Part shown: piece after piece, positions 40,962 to 56,475 of the stretch
How the letters are laid out: the number at the start of each line of letters is the position of its first letter
Position numbering within the stretch: the first letter of the stretch is position 1
NCBI RefSeq assembly: GCF_016894245.1
Contig: NZ_CP069792.1
Location: 2,356,001-2,420,000, forward strand
Direction: 5' to 3'
Length of the DNA: 64,000 nucleotides
Source: Corynebacterium kroppenstedtii
GTDB taxonomy: Bacteria > Actinomycetota > Actinomycetes > Mycobacteriales > Mycobacteriaceae
Made by a program: the position numbers and the translations under genes
Notes under the pieces: generated by a model
Database searches by the model: none
What the model was told of the DNA's origin: nothing
The model's input: the letters and a program-made list of their open reading frames with translations, nothing else

Positions 40962-41990
40962 TTACCGCCGGTCCGTGCACCGCACAAGGAGAAGCGCGAT
41001 ACCCAAAGCTGCGTATTGAACACCGCGTGACAGCGTGACCGCGCGTCTGACGTCGGCAATAGTTGGTGCAGGCCCCTCCCCCATGACTGGGCGCATTTCA
41101 ACTCCATAGGAATACTGCGTGGCGCCGCCCAGTTGCACACCCAAAGCACCGGCGGCGGTGGATTCCACAACTCCCGCGTTAGGGCTGGGATGGTTTTGTT
41201 TCCGCCACGCCTTGATCGACCGCCGCCCGCCAACGGCGGAGTGGATGAGCGCTGTCACTCGCGCGATCGGCCAATTTGCCAGGTCATCCAGCTTGGCAGC
41301 GGCCCAACCGAAGTTCATGTATCGGTCGCTCTTGTAGCCCACCATCGCATCGAGGGTGTTAATGCACCGGTGCGCCACCACTCCAGGAGCTCCCGCCAGC
41401 GCTCCCCAGATCAGGGTTCCGACGCTGGCATCAGACGTATTTTCAGCTAGAGACTCTACCGCAGCGCGGGCAATGCCATCGGCCTCGAGCGAGTTCGGGT
41501 CGCGGGAACACAACCAAGGAACCCACTGGCGGGGCTCGTCGATAGTAGTCATGCCGGATTGGTACTGCTCTAATGCCGTGGCAACTCGGCCACCCGTCCG
41601 GGCAAGACTTGTCCCGCCGAGGCTAAAGAATGTGACGACGCCAAGCACGATCGCGTGCCGTGTGGTGCGACGAGGGCCGGCGAGCGCCGTGGTGGCAAGT
41701 ACGGGGATGCCAATTGACACCGCTTCGAACGCAACGCCACGGGGACGGGAATCGGCATAAATTCTCTCCTCCAGGGCTTGCGCTGCGCGTCCAAATAATG
41801 CGACGGGGTGATAGGAGGCTGGGTCGCCGACGATAGCGTCGGCAAGAAAACCTCCTACTAGCCCATACTGTTCCGGGGTGAGATGGAGGAACTGAGGATG
41901 AAAGAACTTCGATCCGCTGCTGCAGCTACTGTCACTACGTCGCGCGTGGCTCATCTTCGTGCGGTACCATTGTGCACCACGGCTTAGCAT
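40962..41990 (-). CDS. cobD: Adenosylcobinamide-phosphate synthase (CobD/CbiB)
   Basis: Integral membrane enzyme that attaches the aminopropanol arm to cobyric acid. Family landmarks are GDPASYHPVALFGR, SENTSDASV and the DDLANWPIAR loop. 342 aa from ATG 41990, which lies inside the last codons of the upstream eight-cysteine gene (CCATGCTAA), implying coupling. An internal ATG at 41954 is an alternative; neither has a clear ribosome site. Confidence 0.9.
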   Translation of the reverse strand: MLSRGAQWYRTKMSHARRSDSSCSSGSKFFHPQFLHLTPEQYGLVGGFLADAIVGDPASYHPVALFGRAAQALEERIYADSRPRGVAFEAVSIGIPVLATTALAGPRRTTRHAIVLGVVTFFSLGGTSLARTGGRVATALEQYQSGMTTIDEPRQWVPWLCSRDPNSLEADGIARAAVESLAENTSDASVGTLIWGALAGAPGVVAHRCINTLDAMVGYKSDRYMNFGWAAAKLDDLANWPIARVTALIHSAVGGRRSIKAWRKQNHPSPNAGVVESTAAGALGVQLGGATQYSYGVEMRPVMGEGPAPTIADVRRAVTLSRGVQYAALGIALLLVRCTDRR

Positions 41991-42973
41991 GGCGATGAAT
42001 AACTATCGTCATTGTTGAGCCGGCGGGGAAAAGCACCACTCGTCTTGGAAGCGGCATCACATACAGCATCGAGATCGTTCCCATAGTCGACTAACACGGG
42101 ATAGACCAGATTGCCGTTCGAATCCTTTTTCCGCAATGATGGGCAGGCACCGGGGTAGGTGTAATAAGCGTCAGAGTTGCTAGCCAACGCTGACCGCAAT
42201 TTACCTTTGGTGTCCCCGCCCGGTTGATCAGTGACGGATTGCACGATCAAGACATAATTACCGTTGCAGGTGACATTGCGAATGGAGCGAGTGCTTCCGT
42301 TAACCGACACCGAGGTGATGGTTCCGTCGCTATTATTATTGTTCGGGTGCTTTTTCGCTTCTGACGCAGGCGTACACCGGCCAAACAGGCGTTGCGTATT
42401 TTCGGGAACACCATCGCGCTGCATTTTTTCATCGCTGTAGCACGGGCCACCTATTGGTGAATAGATATTTTCTTCATCCGGGTAGTATTCCTCCCATTTA
42501 GACCCCGTCCAATGCAGAGGGATAAGCCAATCCGAACCGTGCTGAATTGCTCCCGCCCACGTGCCGTCACACTTTTCAACATCGTCAAGCTCAGCGGGGA
42601 CGACACCAGTTTCATGCATGTACTCAATGGTGCACCGCTCGCTCACAGAGGGGCCGCTCTCGTTGTCGCTATCGTCAGCCTCTTCTGTAGAGCTAGTTTC
42701 TTGGCTATCTTCAGCCGGCGCGGTCGTAGACTCTGTCGACGCCCCACCACCGTCGGCAGAAGTGTTGTTATTGGCACGGTTGTTAATGAATTGCACCGTA
42801 ATAACAACGACCGCGGCGATCACAACCAGAGCCAGAAGAGTCCACAAAATGGGGATGGCACGTGAGCGTTTTTTCGGCTGGTCGGGAACCTGTTGAGATG
42901 CCTGCTGATTCGAGGCACCACCGTCAACACCCCACTGATCGTTTCCGGCATTCCATTGATTGTTTCCACTCAT
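41984..42973 (-). CDS. Membrane-anchored eight-cysteine protein, paralogue A
   Basis: 329 aa, not recognised. A Gln/Asn-rich cytoplasmic head (1-35) precedes one TM helix (39-63), a Ser/Thr/Glu-rich linker (65-112) and an extracellular domain with eight Cys at residues 114, 135, 178, 200, 236, 277, 305 and 329, ending in SSPC. The same eight Cys occur in the upstream neighbour at almost the same spacing, so four disulfides are likely. It is a tandem duplicate, probably an exported structural or binding protein; no enzymatic motif is visible. Confidence 0.8.
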   Translation of the reverse strand: MSGNNQWNAGNDQWGVDGGASNQQASQQVPDQPKKRSRAIPILWTLLALVVIAAVVVITVQFINNRANNNTSADGGGASTESTTAPAEDSQETSSTEEADDSDNESGPSVSERCTIEYMHETGVVPAELDDVEKCDGTWAGAIQHGSDWLIPLHWTGSKWEEYYPDEENIYSPIGGPCYSDEKMQRDGVPENTQRLFGRCTPASEAKKHPNNNNSDGTITSVSVNGSTRSIRNVTCNGNYVLIVQSVTDQPGGDTKGKLRSALASNSDAYYTYPGACPSLRKKDSNGNLVYPVLVDYGNDLDAVCDAASKTSGAFPRRLNNDDSYSSPC

Positions 42974-43005: not shown

Positions 43006-44004
43006 CTAGCACGGGGAGCTAAAGTCACCACGATCGTTGAGGGTTCGTGGATACCAGTTACTTCTCGACTTCGCTTCTTCGCACATGGCGCTTCTATCGG
43101 AGCCGAAATCTTCATATACAGGATAAATATCATCGCCATTGAGCTGTCCACGTAATGACGAACAATGTCCTGGAGTCATAAATTCAGAACCAGGGTTGGC
43201 CGCGAGTGCTCGTGAAATATCTCCGGCTGTTGCGTCTTTGTTTATATCAACGATTGAATCCTTGATAACGATATTTCTTCCGTCACAGGACGGCGACGAG
43301 GCACGCACAGTCCGGCCAGAAACATTTACCGACGAAATATAACCACTGGAATCAGCATTGTCGGACGACGATGACTTATTGCTCTTCGTGGTCTCATCCG
43401 GGGTACATTCTAAGAATCGAGATCGTATCTCCGATGGAACATGATCAGCGTCTAACCTTGAACTAGAAAAACAGTCATATCCACTAATTCCGGCAACTCC
43501 GTCTCGTTCATACTTGGACCAGTGACCATTAGCCCAGTGATAGTAACGCACATCGTCAGTTCGAGGTACGCCGAACAGTAACCAGTCACCCGAGCAATAA
43601 ATTATTTCATGCTCATCCGCCAGGTGCGGTATGTCTTTGAGCAAGTTGGATTCATCACAACGGTCGGGCGAAGCTTTTTTGTCGCCATCAGACGCGGACG
43701 GTGTTGAGGGGTTCGCGGTGCTCACCTTCGGCGGTGACTCTGACTGACTTTCCAGTGTTCCACTGCTAGCTGCTGCGACAGATTCGTCTTGGCCGCTGTT
43801 CTTATGGGCATTATTCAACGCAATCCATATGATTGAAGCCCCAATGACGAGGGCAACAGTTATGACGACTGTTATGCCAATAGGCATAAGGTTCCGCTTT
43901 TTTGGCGGCTTAGGGTCATTGTTTTGAGGGGGATAGAGGGATCCCCATTCGCCATTAGTTCCTGAAGTCGAATTCTCCAAACGTCGACCGGGCTCGTGAT
44001 TCAT
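43006..44004 (-). CDS. Membrane-anchored eight-cysteine protein, paralogue B
   Basis: 332 aa from ATG 44004; not recognised. Head 1-38 with PPKKRN, TM helix 40-62, Ser-rich linker, then Cys at 116, 137, 178, 200, 240, 281, 308 and 332, with terminal SSPC as in paralogue A. Shared blocks include YPV(Y/L)xDxGxD, AxC(D/E)xA and PR(T/R)LN. It lies 32 nt upstream of paralogue A on the same strand. An AAAGG stretch precedes the start by about 11 nt. The frame open to 44091 adds a poor leader. Confidence 0.78.
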   Translation of the reverse strand: MNHEPGRRLENSTSGTNGEWGSLYPPQNNDPKPPKKRNLMPIGITVVITVALVIGASIIWIALNNAHKNSGQDESVAAASSGTLESQSESPPKVSTANPSTPSASDGDKKASPDRCDESNLLKDIPHLADEHEIIYCSGDWLLFGVPRTDDVRYYHWANGHWSKYERDGVAGISGYDCFSSSRLDADHVPSEIRSRFLECTPDETTKSNKSSSSDNADSSGYISSVNVSGRTVRASSPSCDGRNIVIKDSIVDINKDATAGDISRALAANPGSEFMTPGHCSSLRGQLNGDDIYPVYEDFGSDRSAMCEEAKSRSNWYPRTLNDRGDFSSPC

Positions 44005-44158
44005 GGAGAATACCCCTTTATAAACAGTCAGCGCGTGAGCAATGGGAGGCAGTTGGCCACAAGCAGTGTACCCAGATGACCACAGCGACATAGAGTCCGG
44101 TACATGTGTCAGCCAGCTTTCCTACCCCAGCCTGAGGGTAAAACAGGAGCCATACGAC

Positions 44159-50370: not shown

Positions 50371-50402
50371 GGTCTTTCACCAATCTGAACCATGTGAATG
50401 CG

Positions 50403-50436
50403 AAAAATCCCTTGCCTACGAGAATAGACAAGGGAT
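50403..50436 (-). terminator. Terminator of the CAU tRNA
   Basis: ATCCCTTG / CAAGGGAT stem with a 14-nt loop, followed on the minus strand by TTTTT. Confidence 0.8.
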
Positions 50437-50440
50437 GATG

Positions 50441-50514
50441 TGGGGCCAGCGGGGCTCGAACCCGCGACCAACGGATTATGAGTCCGTGGCTCTAACCTAC
50501 TGAGCTATAGCCCC
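50441..50514 (-). tRNA. tRNA with anticodon CAT (Met or Ile2)
   Basis: 74 nt with acceptor GGGGCTA/TGGCCCC, anticodon stem ACGGA/TCCGT around CTCATAA and T-loop GGTTCGAGCC. It is not initiator tRNA. The acceptor resembles tRNA-Ile, so elongator Met and lysidine-modified Ile2 both remain possible. Confidence 0.92.
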
Positions 50515-50610
50515 GTGAGGATGATAGCAAACGATCTGGAGAATACCGCTATCGCTTCACCCGTTTTCCTGCCCTACATTAGCGACACAATGAACTAACC
50601 AGGTCACGGG

Positions 50611-50650
50611 TAAAAATAAAAACACGGGTCATGACAAGCACAGACCCGTG
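50611..50650 (-). terminator. Terminator of tRNA-Asn
   Basis: CACGGGTC / GACCCGTG stem with a 12-nt loop, followed on the minus strand by TTTTTATTTTTA. Confidence 0.8.
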
Positions 50651-50662
50651 GATGTGAAAAAG

Positions 50663-50735
50663 CTCCCCCAACTGGACTCGAACCAGTAACCCTTCGATTA
50701 ACAGTCGAATGCTCTGCCAATTGAGCTATGGGGGA
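50663..50735 (-). tRNA. tRNA-Asn (anticodon GTT)
   Basis: 73 nt. Acceptor TCCCCCA pairs with TGGGGGA, discriminator G; anticodon stem TTCGA/TCGAA around CTGTTAA; T-loop GGTTCGAGTCC. CCA not encoded. Confidence 0.95.
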
Positions 50736-50945
50736 ATCTGCGGATGACGTCCGCAACGAGATAGAACTGTACAGAGAGACCACAGCAGAGGCAAATCACT
50801 GGATTGAGCTGCGCTTATTCACGCAAACCGCTAAGCACGGTTCCATAAAGTTGCCGCCTCATCCATCCATACGACGCCCACCATAATGCGGGTACCGTAC
50901 CCTAAAGCCATAGAACGAAGTTAGCAAAAGTGATAAGAATAGAGT

Positions 50946-51653
50946 ATGTCTGATCTCAACGTTTCTTTGCGCCCCAACGAAAATGGCGTCCACCTTACTA
51001 AGGTTCCATCGAGGCTGATTACCTTCTGGCAGAAAACCACGTTAGCGGTTACCGATCAGCGCATTGCTATTAACCGGCCCCGTTTACTGTTCGGTTTAAT
51101 CCCCACCGGTAATCGACTCAATAACATCGAGTTGAAATCGGTATCTCATACCGAGACGAAGAAAACGTTTGATCTCACCTACTTAATTACGTCGGCGTTC
51201 CTTTTTGCCCTTAGCTTGATCTGGTTTATCAGCTCTTTTCATGCGAAGAAGCCAGGAATCGACGAATACTACAGTGATTACCCGGAGGGAAAAGTCAGTC
51301 CGCTGATTATGACTCTCTCGGTGATCTGCATGCTTATATCACTCGCTCTGGTCGCTAATTCGTATCGGTCGCGGCTTGTAGTCATCGATAACTTTGACGG
51401 TCAGGATGAAGTCGATGTCTCCGCTCTGGCGCATACAGAAGTGACTAACTTCTCCAATGGTTTCAACGAGTACGTCGGTTACAACCCACAAAACCAAGCC
51501 CCGCAGTCACAGTTCAGCGTGCCGGGACAGGGAAGGAACCAGCAACAGAACCCATCCAATTATCAGAATCCTGGAGTTGCTAACGGATACAACCAGCCGC
51601 AACAGACGCAGGGAAATTACTCAAACAACCCGGAAAATAACCAACCACGTTAG
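50946..51653 (+). CDS. PH-like two-TM protein with Q/N-rich tail, paralogue 1
   Basis: 235 aa, not recognised as a named family. Residues 1-70 form a PH-like head with FWQKTTLAVTDQRI and LFGLIPTG at residues 27-55, which aligns residue for residue with the protein at 52738-53862. Two TM helices follow (about 76-98 and 118-138), then a short soluble part, and from about residue 178 to the end a tail made mostly of Gln, Asn, Pro, Ser and Gly. The head should be cytoplasmic. AT-rich codon use. No upstream SD sequence was clear. Confidence 0.7.
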   Translation: MSDLNVSLRPNENGVHLTKVPSRLITFWQKTTLAVTDQRIAINRPRLLFGLIPTGNRLNNIELKSVSHTETKKTFDLTYLITSAFLFALSLIWFISSFHAKKPGIDEYYSDYPEGKVSPLIMTLSVICMLISLALVANSYRSRLVVIDNFDGQDEVDVSALAHTEVTNFSNGFNEYVGYNPQNQAPQSQFSVPGQGRNQQQNPSNYQNPGVANGYNQPQQTQGNYSNNPENNQPR

Positions 51654-51809
51654 ACCTAAAACTCACGTAGCATAGGTTCGGTTAGGTGCCGCTAGCTTTG
51701 TCGCAAATCTGTTAAGAAAGATTAATAAGATTTTTTAACGGCAAGTGGTCGAAGTCCAAAATCGCGAACACTACGCTATCAGGCTTCTACTGAAGGACAT
51801 GTAGTTCAA

Positions 51810-52217
51810 ATGCGGAAAAGGATTCTCCCCCTCGTCAGTGTTTCCCTGGCAGGCATAATAGCTCTCTCCGGGTGTTCATCAAACGACAAGCTCTCAAATG
51901 GGAAGTGGGAGTTTGAAACCCCTGACGACCTCGAGGACACAATAGATGCTAGTTCGATGATCCTCGACGTCAGCGACCAAAACTTCACTCTTCGAAGTGT
52001 TGATAGGTACGGCGATGTCAACGAAGACGATACAGCAACGGGTAGGGTAAATCGCCCTAAGCGAGCACTAGAAGCACATAACTATAACGGCTCCGAAGCT
52101 TTCACCGAAGCAGAAAAAGACAATGCTGGTAGCGAGAATGTTGTCGAGTATAAGTTTAAAGGAGGTACGCTCATTATCCGGTTTCTCGGGGAAGATTGGA
52201 AGGGAAAGAAAAAGTGA
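51810..52217 (+). CDS. Hypothetical lipoprotein
   Basis: 135 aa with a lipoprotein signal (basic N-terminus, hydrophobic stretch, lipobox ALSGC at residues 18-22). The mature part is acidic to neutral with no family I recognise and ends in a basic KGKKK tail. Located between the two PH-like proteins, so it might act with them. AAGGA lies about 12 nt upstream. Confidence 0.75.
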   Translation: MRKRILPLVSVSLAGIIALSGCSSNDKLSNGKWEFETPDDLEDTIDASSMILDVSDQNFTLRSVDRYGDVNEDDTATGRVNRPKRALEAHNYNGSEAFTEAEKDNAGSENVVEYKFKGGTLIIRFLGEDWKGKKK

Positions 52218-52737
52218 TCTCTATTCACGCTTTGACTCGGAACACTGAGAATACTCTTCAGGCTCGTCAACATGCATGTTTTCTGTTTACGAGAAGTGTA
52301 ATGCCTCACTAAGATGCGGAATTAAAGAAAACAGGTATAAAGAGTTCTCGTTAATGAAATTACACTGAGCCTGGCTACGTTTTCACCTCATAAAATTGGT
52401 GTGAGATTTTCACCTCGCAGCTGAGGGTGGAAACAATATAGGCGCTCTAGCGCCTAGTTCTTAGAATTGAAGGTGGCCACATCTTGGTCTAAACCGACAA
52501 TTCGCGGAAAGGCTAGCTTTTTCGCGAAATACTAACCAACTCGAACCGTGGCGTATCAACTAGGCAATGCAACTGCACGTTTAGTTTTTCAGTTCAACCC
52601 ACGGCCGCTGCGACCATATTAAATAGATCATGAGCGGCGCCAAAATCTGGCGTCGCTCATTAGACACTCTTCACCGAATTACACCGATTAGCCAAGAACA
52701 CCGCACAATGTACCGATAGTCCCCCTTAAATAATCAA
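52218..52737. other. AT-rich intergenic region with palindromes
   Basis: 520 nt without a gene that I can support. It contains a perfect AGGCGCT-CT-AGCGCCT palindrome (52440-52455) and a longer hairpin (52630-52660). The rest shows no repeats, RNA gene or mobile-element ends. Confidence 0.6.
52630..52660. terminator. Hairpin between convergent genes
   Basis: A 13-bp stem (ATGAGCGGCGCCA with one G-T pair) and 5-nt loop. It has no strong T-run, but the position between the lipoprotein gene and the convergent PH-like gene suits a terminator. Confidence 0.5.
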
Positions 52738-53862
52738 CTAGTCGTGGGATGAATCCTTCTTTTCAGATTCGTTGGTATACCTCGAACTGAGATTCGAGTC
52801 ACCATCTTCGGGGTGTTCATTCGTAAGAGTCGATTCAGATTCCTCTGAAACGGAATGGCTAGAACTCGTGCTCGAACTACTTTGTGGTGAAGATTGTCCC
52901 CATTGGTTAGGGTTACTGAATTGACCAGATCCGGCCTGCTGGTTGGCACTCTGTTCACCTCGGTTTCCACCGAAAGACTGCCCAGCATTGAACGACTGAG
53001 AACCATTCGAGTTCTGCGCACTCTGGTTGCTTGTCGAGAAACCTTGTTGCGAGCCGCCGAAGCCCTGTTGCTGACCACCGAAACCCTGCGAGGAATTAAA
53101 TCCCCGCTGCTGGTTGCCGAACTGCTGAGGCTGACCACCAAAGCCCTGTTGCTGACCACCGAAACCCTGCGAGGAATTAAATCCCCGCTGCTGGTTGCCA
53201 AACTGCTGAGGCTGACCACCGAAACCCTGCGAGGAATTAAATCCCCGCTGCTGGTTGCCAAACTGCTGAGGCTGACCATCAAACCCCTGAGGAGCGTTAA
53301 ATCCCTGCGGCTGCCCTCCGTCGAATTGCGACTGCCCGAAGCCTGTTCCATCGGGATGAGGATGAATGTAATCGGTAAGTCGATCACTAAATTCTTTTAG
53401 TAAAGACTTCTGTATTGGAGTGATAGTAAAACAAGTCTTTTCTCCGTAATTTTCAATAAAATATATTCCTGATCGTAAGGAATTAATAATTAGTACAATA
53501 GATACCCAATAAACAAGGGCCCAAACCCCAGCACCTGCTCCGGTTAAAACAAAAGACTCAGTCGGATCAACGGACAAATAATATAGACCCGTCTCGATGA
53601 ACCATATAAACCCAAAGAGTAAAAACTGTGGGAAATAAATTTTCCACGAAGCGGTAACTTCAGAAATAGAACTCAATGGAATTGATTCTTCCCGACCACC
53701 GAGAGGAATAAATCCTAAAAATGTTTTATGGTCCCTAACCACTACACGATGATTTGTCACAATCATCGTTGTGGGAAGCCAAAACAAAAGCAGGCTTGAT
53801 CGGAATTTACGAGAAAAGACACGTTGCTCACCGGGGGTCAGGATTATATCACTATCAACCAT
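52738..53862 (-). CDS. PH-like two-TM protein with Q/G-rich repeat tail, paralogue 2
   Basis: 374 aa. Residues 1-75 are the PH-like head (FWLPTTMIVTNHRV, then TFLGFIPLGG at 47-56), followed by TM helices at about 77-96 and 104-128 and a short soluble part to 165. Residues 172-275 are Gln/Gly/Phe/Asn-rich and contain three copies of a 20-residue unit (GQPQQFGNQQRGFNSSQGFG), beginning near 196, 216 and 243. Residues 275-374 are Ser/Glu/Asn-rich. The composition is prion-like. Same family as the protein at 50946. No enzymatic residues seen. Confidence 0.72.
   Translation of the reverse strand: MVDSDIILTPGEQRVFSRKFRSSLLLFWLPTTMIVTNHRVVVRDHKTFLGFIPLGGREESIPLSSISEVTASWKIYFPQFLLFGFIWFIETGLYYLSVDPTESFVLTGAGAGVWALVYWVSIVLIINSLRSGIYFIENYGEKTCFTITPIQKSLLKEFSDRLTDYIHPHPDGTGFGQSQFDGGQPQGFNAPQGFDGQPQQFGNQQRGFNSSQGFGGQPQQFGNQQRGFNSSQGFGGQQQGFGGQPQQFGNQQRGFNSSQGFGGQQQGFGGSQQGFSTSNQSAQNSNGSQSFNAGQSFGGNRGEQSANQQAGSGQFSNPNQWGQSSPQSSSSTSSSHSVSEESESTLTNEHPEDGDSNLSSRYTNESEKKDSSHD
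53080..53285 (-). repeat. 60-bp coding tandem repeats in the Q/G-rich tail
   Basis: Three near-identical 60-bp copies plus shorter GQQQGFG units encode the repeat tail. The DNA copies differ at very few positions, which suggests recent expansion. Confidence 0.85.
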
Positions 53863-54018
53863 ATGACTAGGTATACCAACATCAGATCACGGCCACAATC
53901 ATAAAAAGATAATTTCCAGATTCGTTATTGAAATGTAACGAAAATTACCCTAAAAAGGAGGTTCGTGTCTGATAAAGCTTGCTAAATCCCTACGTCTGGC
54001 AGAATGTGACGTGGTTCT

Positions 54019-56475
54019 TCAGAACTCCTTTTGGATTCGAATTTCATAACGATCTTTATCGCGAATAAAGATCAGTGCGACAAGAGCACCGACAGCAGCC
54101 AGAACCGCGGCAATAATCAGCACGTTATGTAACCCGTTGATGTAGGATTCCAGAGCTTTGTCGACAAACATTGGGGCATGCTGGCGAATAATCGAGAATT
54201 GCCCACTCGACGCTAAATCTACAATCTTTTGCGGAGCATCCATCGTGATAGTCGATTTATCCGGCGACAATACCGCTCCCGGTGGCAACTGAGGCACGGG
54301 CGCTGAGGCTCCCGGTGGCATCTGCTGTGCTGCACCCGCTTGCGTGTTCATCACCGATGCCGTCGGAAAGGACACCGCTTTCAACCCTGAGGACGTTGCC
54401 GCTGTAATAATCGCACCATAAATAGCCACGCCGAAACTAGTCCCCAAGGGAAAAGCTGTGTTGGCAATACCGGTAGCGGTACCTGTTTTACGCGGAGCAA
54501 CAACAGAGACCGCAACGTCCATCAAGTGCGGAAGCATCAATCCGGTACCAATGCCGACCACGATGTACATCGGAATGATGTCAACCCAGCCGGAGTTAGA
54601 GTTCAACTTCAAGCCAAGGAGCAGGCCAGCTGCAATGATGATCATTCCCAAGGCCTGAATGGCAGAAACTTTGATCCTCTTACCCAGCTGTATCGCCACA
54701 GGTGAGAACAGAATAATCGGGATAGCTAGTGCCGTCGTCACGTAACCAACCTCTAAAGAGGTTAAACCGACTGCTCCCGACAGCCAGAGAATGATGTACG
54801 GCATCATCCCGAAACTAAACAATCGGGCCGCGAACGCAACGATGGTCACCGCAGAAAAGGAGGGGATAGTAAACATGCGGACATCGATCATGGCCTTGTC
54901 CCCCTTGGCCAATTGCATCCACACCAAAATAACTAACCCCGCCAGGCTTACACCAAAGCCTATAAAGACTTTGCCATCGGTCCACCCATCATCAGGGCCG
55001 GTAAGGAGAGCGTAATTCAAAGCAAAGAGGAACACAGACGCGACAATCAGGGTTAACCATGAGATCGGCGGAACCGACTCCTCAACCTCCCGGTTTTCGA
55101 GCTTCTCTACCTCCTCGGCATACCCCTCAGCCAACAGATGCGCTTTTCTCTCTTCCAAAGCCTGCTGACGCCACTGCTGTGCATCCTTCGGCACGCCGAA
55201 CAACGTTCCACCAATGATCAGTAATCCAATTGGAATGTTGATCGCGAAGATCCACCGCCAGTCAAAGAATTCAATAATGGCACCACCGACAAGTGGTCCC
55301 AATGCCACTGCAGCGGCACCAGCCGCCATGAAAACAGCCACCGCACTCGTTCGCTGTTTCTCCTCACCAGGGCCGAAAACATCGGAAAGAAGGGGCAAAC
55401 TGGATCCGAAGACCATGGCACCCCCAGCCCCCTGGATGGCGCGAGCCACAATCATCCAATTTTCAGCATCGGCCGTCATACATCCGACCGACGCCGCGAC
55501 AAATATCAGCTGCCCCACGATGAAGATGCCTCGGCGTCCTACGAGGTCAGACAGGCTACCAACGCCCAACAACAACGCCGCGAAAGCCAGAGTGTACGCG
55601 TTGACGATCCACTGCGAGCCCGACAACGACAACTTGAGGCTTTCGCCAATGTCCGGCAATGCCACCAGGACGATCGTCATATCAAGCGTCATCATGAGCG
55701 AGGCAACAGACCCCGCTACCGTGGACCAAAACTTCGCATGAGGGTAACGACGACCAGTCGGTTTCTTCCCCGATTCGGCCTGCTTCGTTTTCGCTGCGGA
55801 GGATTTAGCCTTCGCCGTGGAGGGGTTTATTGTCTTTGCTGCGGCAGGCTTTGTCTTCACTGCAGAGGACTGTGGCCCTGTTACGTCGGCGACAGACACG
55901 TCATCACTATCGACGCCTCCGCTCACAAGGTCATCGGGGCGGGCGTCCGCGCCCCCAACTCCAGGACGTTCGAACGTATCTTCCGAGGGATGGGTATATA
56001 GGTCCTGGCCATCTGGAGTGTTATCCTCTCGGCCCGGCGCGTCGCCTGCCGCCTCGTCGCTGCCGACAACTTCGCCTTCAAGGATTTCGCCGCCATAGCC
56101 CGACGCATCCGCCGGCGATGAGGGAAACCCTGGGTACCCCGCGCCCGAGGGCACCGACTCATCCTGCCACGGGCGTTGTCCGCCACCAGTCAGCGGATGC
56201 CCCATGAAAGAAACCTCGTCTTCGGGGCGGAGAACATCGACTTCACGGCGCCGATGGCGACCACCCGACGAGGTCAATTCCTTTAAACTTGGATCGAACG
56301 TGAGAAACGGAAACGCCGGCGCGTTACGTTCTTCCGACGCGTTACGTTCTTCCGGCGTCGACACGTCATCCACGCCTGACGGATCACCCTTCAGCGGGTC
56401 ATACGCACTGTCCGCACTACCAGCTCGGCCAGCAAAGCGGCTGTCCGACGCAGACGATGGCTCCTTAGAGTCCAC
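54019..56475 (-). CDS. MFS multidrug exporter (DHA2/EmrB-QacA) with long N-terminal extension
   Basis: 818 aa. From about residue 248 it is a 14-helix DHA2 drug:proton antiporter with motif A (GSLSDLVGRRG) and motif C-like GPLVGG. The first 245 residues are hydrophilic, rich in Asp, Glu, Ser and Gly, then an Ala/Lys/Thr-rich stretch (about 205-238) directly before TM1. Typical family members are near 500 aa, so the extension is unusual. Start GTG 56475 with GGAGG 5 nt upstream. Substrate unknown. Confidence 0.9.
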   Translation of the reverse strand: MDSKEPSSASDSRFAGRAGSADSAYDPLKGDPSGVDDVSTPEERNASEERNAPAFPFLTFDPSLKELTSSGGRHRRREVDVLRPEDEVSFMGHPLTGGGQRPWQDESVPSGAGYPGFPSSPADASGYGGEILEGEVVGSDEAAGDAPGREDNTPDGQDLYTHPSEDTFERPGVGGADARPDDLVSGGVDSDDVSVADVTGPQSSAVKTKPAAAKTINPSTAKAKSSAAKTKQAESGKKPTGRRYPHAKFWSTVAGSVASLMMTLDMTIVLVALPDIGESLKLSLSGSQWIVNAYTLAFAALLLGVGSLSDLVGRRGIFIVGQLIFVAASVGCMTADAENWMIVARAIQGAGGAMVFGSSLPLLSDVFGPGEEKQRTSAVAVFMAAGAAAVALGPLVGGAIIEFFDWRWIFAINIPIGLLIIGGTLFGVPKDAQQWRQQALEERKAHLLAEGYAEEVEKLENREVEESVPPISWLTLIVASVFLFALNYALLTGPDDGWTDGKVFIGFGVSLAGLVILVWMQLAKGDKAMIDVRMFTIPSFSAVTIVAFAARLFSFGMMPYIILWLSGAVGLTSLEVGYVTTALAIPIILFSPVAIQLGKRIKVSAIQALGMIIIAAGLLLGLKLNSNSGWVDIIPMYIVVGIGTGLMLPHLMDVAVSVVAPRKTGTATGIANTAFPLGTSFGVAIYGAIITAATSSGLKAVSFPTASVMNTQAGAAQQMPPGASAPVPQLPPGAVLSPDKSTITMDAPQKIVDLASSGQFSIIRQHAPMFVDKALESYINGLHNVLIIAAVLAAVGALVALIFIRDKDRYEIRIQKEF

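Follow-up and report, generated by a model that had tools for sequence, protein, structure and literature searches.

A 64-kb window of Corynebacterium DNA, taken from a genome that forms a single contig of 2,483,614 bases, carries genes A and B for two PH-like membrane proteins, with a gene for a small putative lipoprotein between them (Table 1). The window is the whole stretch analysed, and all rankings and open reading frame (ORF) counts below refer to it. With gene A as query, A and B are the only members of their family found in this genome. The closest named match of A is a C. kroppenstedtii protein (82%), on which basis the genome is assigned to the C. kroppenstedtii complex. A preliminary description of the locus, made from the sequence, had noted the pair and the lipoprotein; that gene B lies on the strand opposite to gene A and the lipoprotein gene is a point absent from it. 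The lipoprotein-type start of the 135-residue ORF (LSGC) was read by eye, and the ORF has no match above cut-off to a curated family in Pfam, NCBIfam, PADLOC or PHROGs.

Table 1. Features of the A/B locus, numbered from the first base of the window
Feature	Position	Strand	Remarks
tRNA-Met	50440-50514	-	upstream of gene A
tRNA-Asn	50662-50735	-	upstream of gene A
gene A	50946-51653	+	ORF of 235 aa; head residues 1-178, N/Q/P-rich tail 179-235; paralogue of B; orthologue at the same site in three sister genomes
gene A membrane hairpin	51174-51356	+	residues 77-137; hydropathy peaks at 77-95 and 119-137
gene A low-complexity tail	51480-51650	+	residues 179-235; top Q/N 60-residue stretch among 58 window ORFs
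variable slot	51631-54023		two of three sister genomes have about 1.76 kb instead, coding for a different form of the lipoprotein and for a J-like membrane protein
small putative lipoprotein	51810-52217	+	ORF of 135 aa; 39-40% identity to the version of the other slot type, flanking proteins 82-89%
gene B	52738-53862	-	ORF of 374 aa; PH-like/membrane-hairpin head 1-172, Q/N/G/S-rich tail 173-374
gene B low-complexity tail	52741-53346	-	residues 173-374
tandem repeat in gene B tail	53039-53289	-	60- and 81-bp steps; unit number varies among database relatives
gene B deviant core	53347-53742	-	codons 41-172, third-position G+C (GC3) 0.27; 44/124 aligned residues identical to alternative allele P0012
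gene B membrane hairpin	53482-53634	-	residues 77-127; follows beta strand 5 and precedes strand 6 in the modelled PH-like fold

Judged from their alignment, the homology of the heads of A and B is beyond doubt. The ungapped match over residues 31-55 on which the preliminary description relied holds nine identities in 25 positions, the whole heads align with a score of 145 as against a mean of -51.8 (standard deviation 14.5) and a maximum of 16 in 1000 shuffles, and full-length BLASTP gives 27% identity over 238 columns (E 3e-18). The two transmembrane helices ascribed to both proteins were recovered by hydropathy, at residues 77-95 and 119-137 of A and 80-98 and 108-126 of B; the first helix of B reaches a value of 1.59, so that a stricter threshold of 1.6 counts one helix only, and the structure model shows both (77-97 and 108-127). 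The head of B gave a confident model with structural matches to bacterial PH domains, in agreement with the PH-like assignment made earlier. Its predicted order is strands 1 to 5, the two transmembrane helices, strands 6 and 7 and a closing helix, and the model thus contains the seven-stranded sandwich with a C-terminal closing helix that defines the PHb fold.

Neither protein belongs to a curated family at the cut-offs of Pfam, NCBIfam, PADLOC or PHROGs. No Pfam bPH family matches A or B at E ≤ 1 or appears among the families found for 27 heads of the family at E ≤ 0.01, and the heads retrieve no PDB entry by sequence at E ≤ 1. NCBIfam matched A to AmaP with 16 bits (cut-off 55) and to an F1-like-associated membrane protein with 12.4 bits (cut-off 70), and both hits were dismissed as hydrophobic noise. 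As no description of the family was found in the open-access literature either, the earlier view that it is undescribed holds. The nearest known fold is that of the bacterial PHb domains (Pfam PF08000/DUF1696; PDB 3hsa and 3dcx), as presented in the available portion of PMC2817789, from which A and B differ by the hairpin inserted inside the PH fold, the low-complexity tail and the missing Pfam match. The YdbS/YdbT proteins of the bPH2 type (DUF304; PMC8657885) also join a PH-like domain to two transmembrane helices, and such proteins occur in Corynebacterium glutamicum; their helices, however, are described as lying outside the PH domain, whereas those of B are placed by the model between strands 5 and 6, and A and B in addition have a tail, lack the Pfam match and do not form a ydbST-like gene pair. 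A third likeness, and a candidate parent family, is DUF6232 (PF19744), a family of unknown function on which no paper was found in the open-access literature and which by eye has the same order of parts, namely strands, two helices, strands and a helix. Its profile matched four of the 27 family heads at E ≤ 0.01, and full proteins scored 20.8, 19.9 and 18.2 bits, all under the curated cut-off of 27.4; comparison of the profiles by hhalign gave a probability of 3.7%. DUF6232 proteins of other Actinomycetes (L166-L169, L171 and L172) may be a shorter version of the A/B architecture.

The tails of A and B differ from each other, as had been stated, and that of B contains tandem repeats. The best 60-residue stretches hold 28 (A) and 26 (B) Q and N residues, the two highest counts among 58 window ORFs (the third has 14), and by composition both tails have the Q/N-rich low complexity of prion-like proteins. 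The preliminary description had named a lack of tails in all homologues as a point that would count against it, and such a general lack is not seen. In 16 of 23 Corynebacterium rows by script, or 17 when G146, read separately, is counted, the tail is 40 or more residues long and has a Q+N of at least 0.2; in the other rows it has 7-9 residues (three rows), 33 residues (one), Q+N below 0.2 (G039a) or is replaced by a J-like domain (G198). These 23 rows exclude G344, G152 with its interrupted frame, the second copy in G094, the gene A of G123 and the P0012-type alleles, and G225 has no script-derived tail value. Because the tail is absent from three of the 23 rows and from three homologues on Bacillota plasmids, it appears to be a common yet dispensable addition, unneeded for the basic role of the family. 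Bacterial prion-like domains are often sporadically conserved, according to the available part of PMC6400439, and the sporadic distribution of the tail agrees with that pattern, which is no proof of function. Condensate formation by the tails is possible, with their composition as its basis.

The DNA around A and B is collinear with that of three sister genomes (G123, G077 and G013), which have gene A and both tRNA genes in the same order. In G123 the gene order is unchanged and identity is 96% throughout. As far as base 51630, where gene A ends, and from base 54024 onward, at the end of a gene for a major facilitator superfamily (MFS) protein, G077 and G013 are 87-92% identical; within the slot between these points they align only over 100 bp at the start of the lipoprotein gene. 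The proteins outside are well conserved in these two genomes (82-85% for A, 88-89% for the MFS protein) as against 39-40% for the lipoprotein, and in the place of B there is a protein of 297 to 308 residues that combines a J-like head, a linker rich in S, N and G, and a pair of hydrophobic helices. The slot with the lipoprotein gene and B is exchanged between genomes. Among 242 genomes the lipoprotein has a strong match in four, the source and its three sisters, and a weak one in three more (E 4.7e-4 to 8.8e-4).

The region had been described as richer in A and T than its surroundings, following two tRNA genes, and as acquired for that reason. The composition is as described, with a G+C of 0.455 over the slot, 0.482 in gene A and 0.56-0.57 in the flanks. 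Acquisition is supported only in part: the exchange of the slot and the codon composition of the B core, the most deviant in the window, speak for it, but the three sisters also have gene A and the tRNA flank, and no insertion repeat was seen. Moreover, G+C is low in both slot types (0.455 and 0.451 with B, 0.465 and 0.473 with the J-like gene in sister genomes), and it therefore cannot date an arrival in the source genome. A search of positions 50380-54300 for boundary repeats turned up the repeat of the gene B tail alone, and no integrase or transposase lies in the slot, integrase having been judged from slot ORFs only. An island acquired by tRNA integration was thus rejected as an origin of gene A and of the tRNA flank, the latter being continuous with the three sisters and free of boundary repeats.

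Gene B itself looks mosaic. Among its database relatives there is a second type of allele, represented by P0012 and by others of which some bear the name C. kroppenstedtii. To P0012, B is 83% identical at the start (33/40 residues), 35% in the core (44/124) and 81% in the tail (153/190), the last figure being helped by the alignment of repeats (74/95 without them). The GC3 of the core is the lowest of 1093 windows of the same length in 50 window ORFs, the others having a mean of 0.637, a standard deviation of 0.063 and a minimum of 0.371; elsewhere in the gene GC3 is 0.40 in codons 1-40, 0.60 in the repeats and 0.43 in the last 74 codons. The pattern fits a replacement of the core by DNA of another source, the alternative being strong local divergence; no donor for the core was found by tblastn or among viral contigs. 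The tree groups P0012, B and A in a single clade (support 98/97) with branches of 2.32 for A and 1.04 for B, which points to duplication within the lineage rather than foreign arrival of B, with caution for long-branch attraction. Many database forms related to gene B, P0010, P0034, P0048 and P0050 among them, start internally (303, 295, 273 or 260 residues), either through start-site calls or through disrupted N-termini, possibly switching.

The protein that replaces B in the sister genomes belongs to a group with a predicted J-domain fold. A profile of 29 J-like heads (alignment A6, from 30 fetched loci with L142 excluded) matches J domains among solved structures with a best E of 3.8e-5, and the model has J-domain helices and J domains as its leading Foldseek rows (best E 0.13, probability 0.97, none at E ≤ 0.001). 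The HPD motif is needed for the usual stimulation of Hsp70 by J domains, and because it occurs in none of the 29 rows, such stimulation by these proteins seems unlikely. A likeness to Pam16-type proteins, which are membrane proteins with a degenerate J domain, would concern this occupant of the slot and not A or B. J-profile matches at E ≤ 0.001 were found in 183 of 242 genomes, a count that includes ordinary DnaJ; of the two in the source genome, one is an ordinary DnaJ and the other, encoded at a different chromosomal site, is a J-like membrane protein conserved in all four sister genomes. In five of 23 PH-carrying genomes a PH-like and a J-like gene are at most 10 kb apart, among the J matches listed, where 0.215 would be expected. 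With G077 and G013 counted as one lineage the number is four (P 3.7e-5), and without the fusion as well it is three (P 7e-4). That fusion, in G198, joins a PH-like and a J-like head in one frame. G094 has a row of genes, occurring twice in that genome, for a lipoprotein-like protein, an unknown protein, a J-like protein, a protein kinase (Pkinase, E 1.3e-34), a low-complexity membrane protein and a PH-like protein (L059:2279-8393). In G048 there are 11 J-like profile matches, several of them clustered about 5 kb from the PH-like gene (L056:13577-15980 and elsewhere), and one J-like linker has Q/G/Y repeats resembling the PH-like tail of the same genome.

B as query finds the family in 21 of 201 Corynebacterium genomes and alignment A1 in 23 of 242; for the wider taxonomic family A1 gave 14 of 151 genomes and seven of 31 genera, with Skermania and Dietzia among the named matches, and scanning whole named genomes yielded no more than three loci. 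By tblastn it was also found on three Bacillota plasmids (Niallia and Peribacillus), in proteins of 151, 142 and 153 residues that end after the head, and on one contig labelled as phage, in an ORF of 216 residues with a Q-rich end; this contig also encodes, as read by eye, a large helicase-like protein. Sixteen pattern matches in viral contigs were not confirmed. Both Niallia plasmids (L173:4992-7559 and L175:4986-7488) have the tail-less PH-like gene, then a small gene, then a transglycosylase/C40 or NlpC/P60 gene, an order that suggests a context of conjugation or of the cell wall. Two genomes from a different genus (L074:7796-8875 and L075:7634-8605) have a leucine-rich-variant domain after the head (LRV_2, E 2.2e-27 in one, the same tail in the other), and near these genes lie neighbour proteins of which one has PQQ/BamB-like repeats. 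Inspection by eye had suggested TerD-like and FHA-like neighbours, which Pfam did not confirm.

The MFS transporter next to the slot (54019-56475, 818 residues) has a polar N-terminal extension of about 240 residues ahead of the transporter domain. Two tandem minus-strand proteins (41984-42973 and 43006-44091), which fall into one sequence cluster, begin with a polar stretch that contains N and Q and have a single membrane helix, and the second has the lowest GC3 in the window after gene B.

Taken together, A and B are diverged paralogues of an unnamed family of small membrane proteins and may act as membrane-anchored adaptors or scaffolds facing the cytosol, with exchangeable heads and flexible arms, a proposal to which we give an even chance. 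The anatomy is well supported by prediction, and the adaptor role is suggested by the PH-like fold, PH oligomerisation, the exchange with and fusion to J-like proteins and the probable location of the tail. In the model the hairpin splits the PH-like domain so that both halves of the head would be on the same side of the membrane, most likely the cytosol, and for this reason the tail would be cytosolic too. Bacterial PH domains are known to oligomerise into rings, and by analogy the head may bind a partner or itself, while the tail, expanding through its repeats, would serve as a flexible arm for reaching or gathering partners. The slot would swap cytosolic heads on membrane anchors and would have no single fixed function, since a J-like protein takes the place of B in sister genomes, the two heads are fused in one genome and B looks mosaic. 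Several observations weigh against this adaptor proposal. Neighbourhoods vary and there is no conserved operon partner across the genus; Foldseek gave no PDB structure at E ≤ 0.001 for either model; the tail is missing from some rows; and the sister relation of A and B may be an artefact of their long branches. The linkage test, besides, is biased, since of six seeds used for the J profile (A5) five lie in PH-carrying loci and the J matches listed for it reach only E about 6e-14. Seven of the 23 PH-carrying genomes lack a strong match to the J-like profile in that list.

Alternatively, the slot may be a small piece of horizontally moved DNA and the family a cargo of plasmids or similar elements, maybe serving conjugation or the cell wall. 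The plasmid and phage-labelled relatives, the lytic transglycosylase/C40 or NlpC/P60 gene near the PH-like gene in both Niallia plasmids, and the low G+C with the deviant B core are in favour of this, but the lack of integrase, transposase and boundary repeat noted above, the constant place of gene A and the tRNAs in three sisters and the low G+C of both slot types make it rather unlikely. The preliminary description had favoured assembly driven by the tails, in which A and B would form membrane-attached condensates or prion-like assemblies located by the PH-like head. The strong Q/N bias, its spread through most Corynebacterium rows and the similarity of the B tail to that of the alternative allele despite divergent cores agree with it; however, composition alone does not predict assembly, tails are missing in some rows and in the Bacillota homologues, the B tail terminates in an S/E/D/K-rich stretch, its similarity to the other allele is aided by repeats, and DNA tandem repeats can yield such tails without selection, so that we consider it unlikely. 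A and B could also be fast-decaying, lineage-specific duplicates of no strong role that persisted by chance while repeat slippage and recombination diversified them. This would account for the long branches and the relatives with internal starts (303, 273 and 260 residues), which may be start-site calls or broken genes, but A remains an open frame conserved in two sisters, both heads retain the marked residues of the family and the model of B is confident; it seems improbable. Finally, a role in transport or self-protection has been proposed for PH membrane proteins of the YdbS/YdbT type, with loss of DdE or DdF abolishing export of the leaderless bacteriocin enterocin DD14 in the available text of PMC8657885. 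A and B have the same ingredients, but their hairpin is predicted to split the domain, Pfam bPH families do not match and no bacteriocin or ABC transporter gene was seen beside the slot, which makes such a role very improbable.

Within the adaptor proposal, one could go further and regard these proteins as recombining scaffolds of corynebacteria, in which PH-like heads and HPD-less J-like heads are exchangeable and low-complexity arms gather client or signalling proteins, so that a swap of head or core would retarget a membrane-attached assembly between strains; we hold this extension to be decidedly unlikely as it stands. A PH-like domain with its own internal membrane hairpin would be an unusual mode of membrane fixation, in a family without a curated name in the libraries searched, and its being exchanged with J-like membrane proteins, and fused to one of their heads, offers a concrete functional lead that neither family gives alone. 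If the tails gather partners, these proteins would be membrane-bound counterparts of eukaryotic low-complexity scaffolds, in a group that includes bacteria of human skin and breast.
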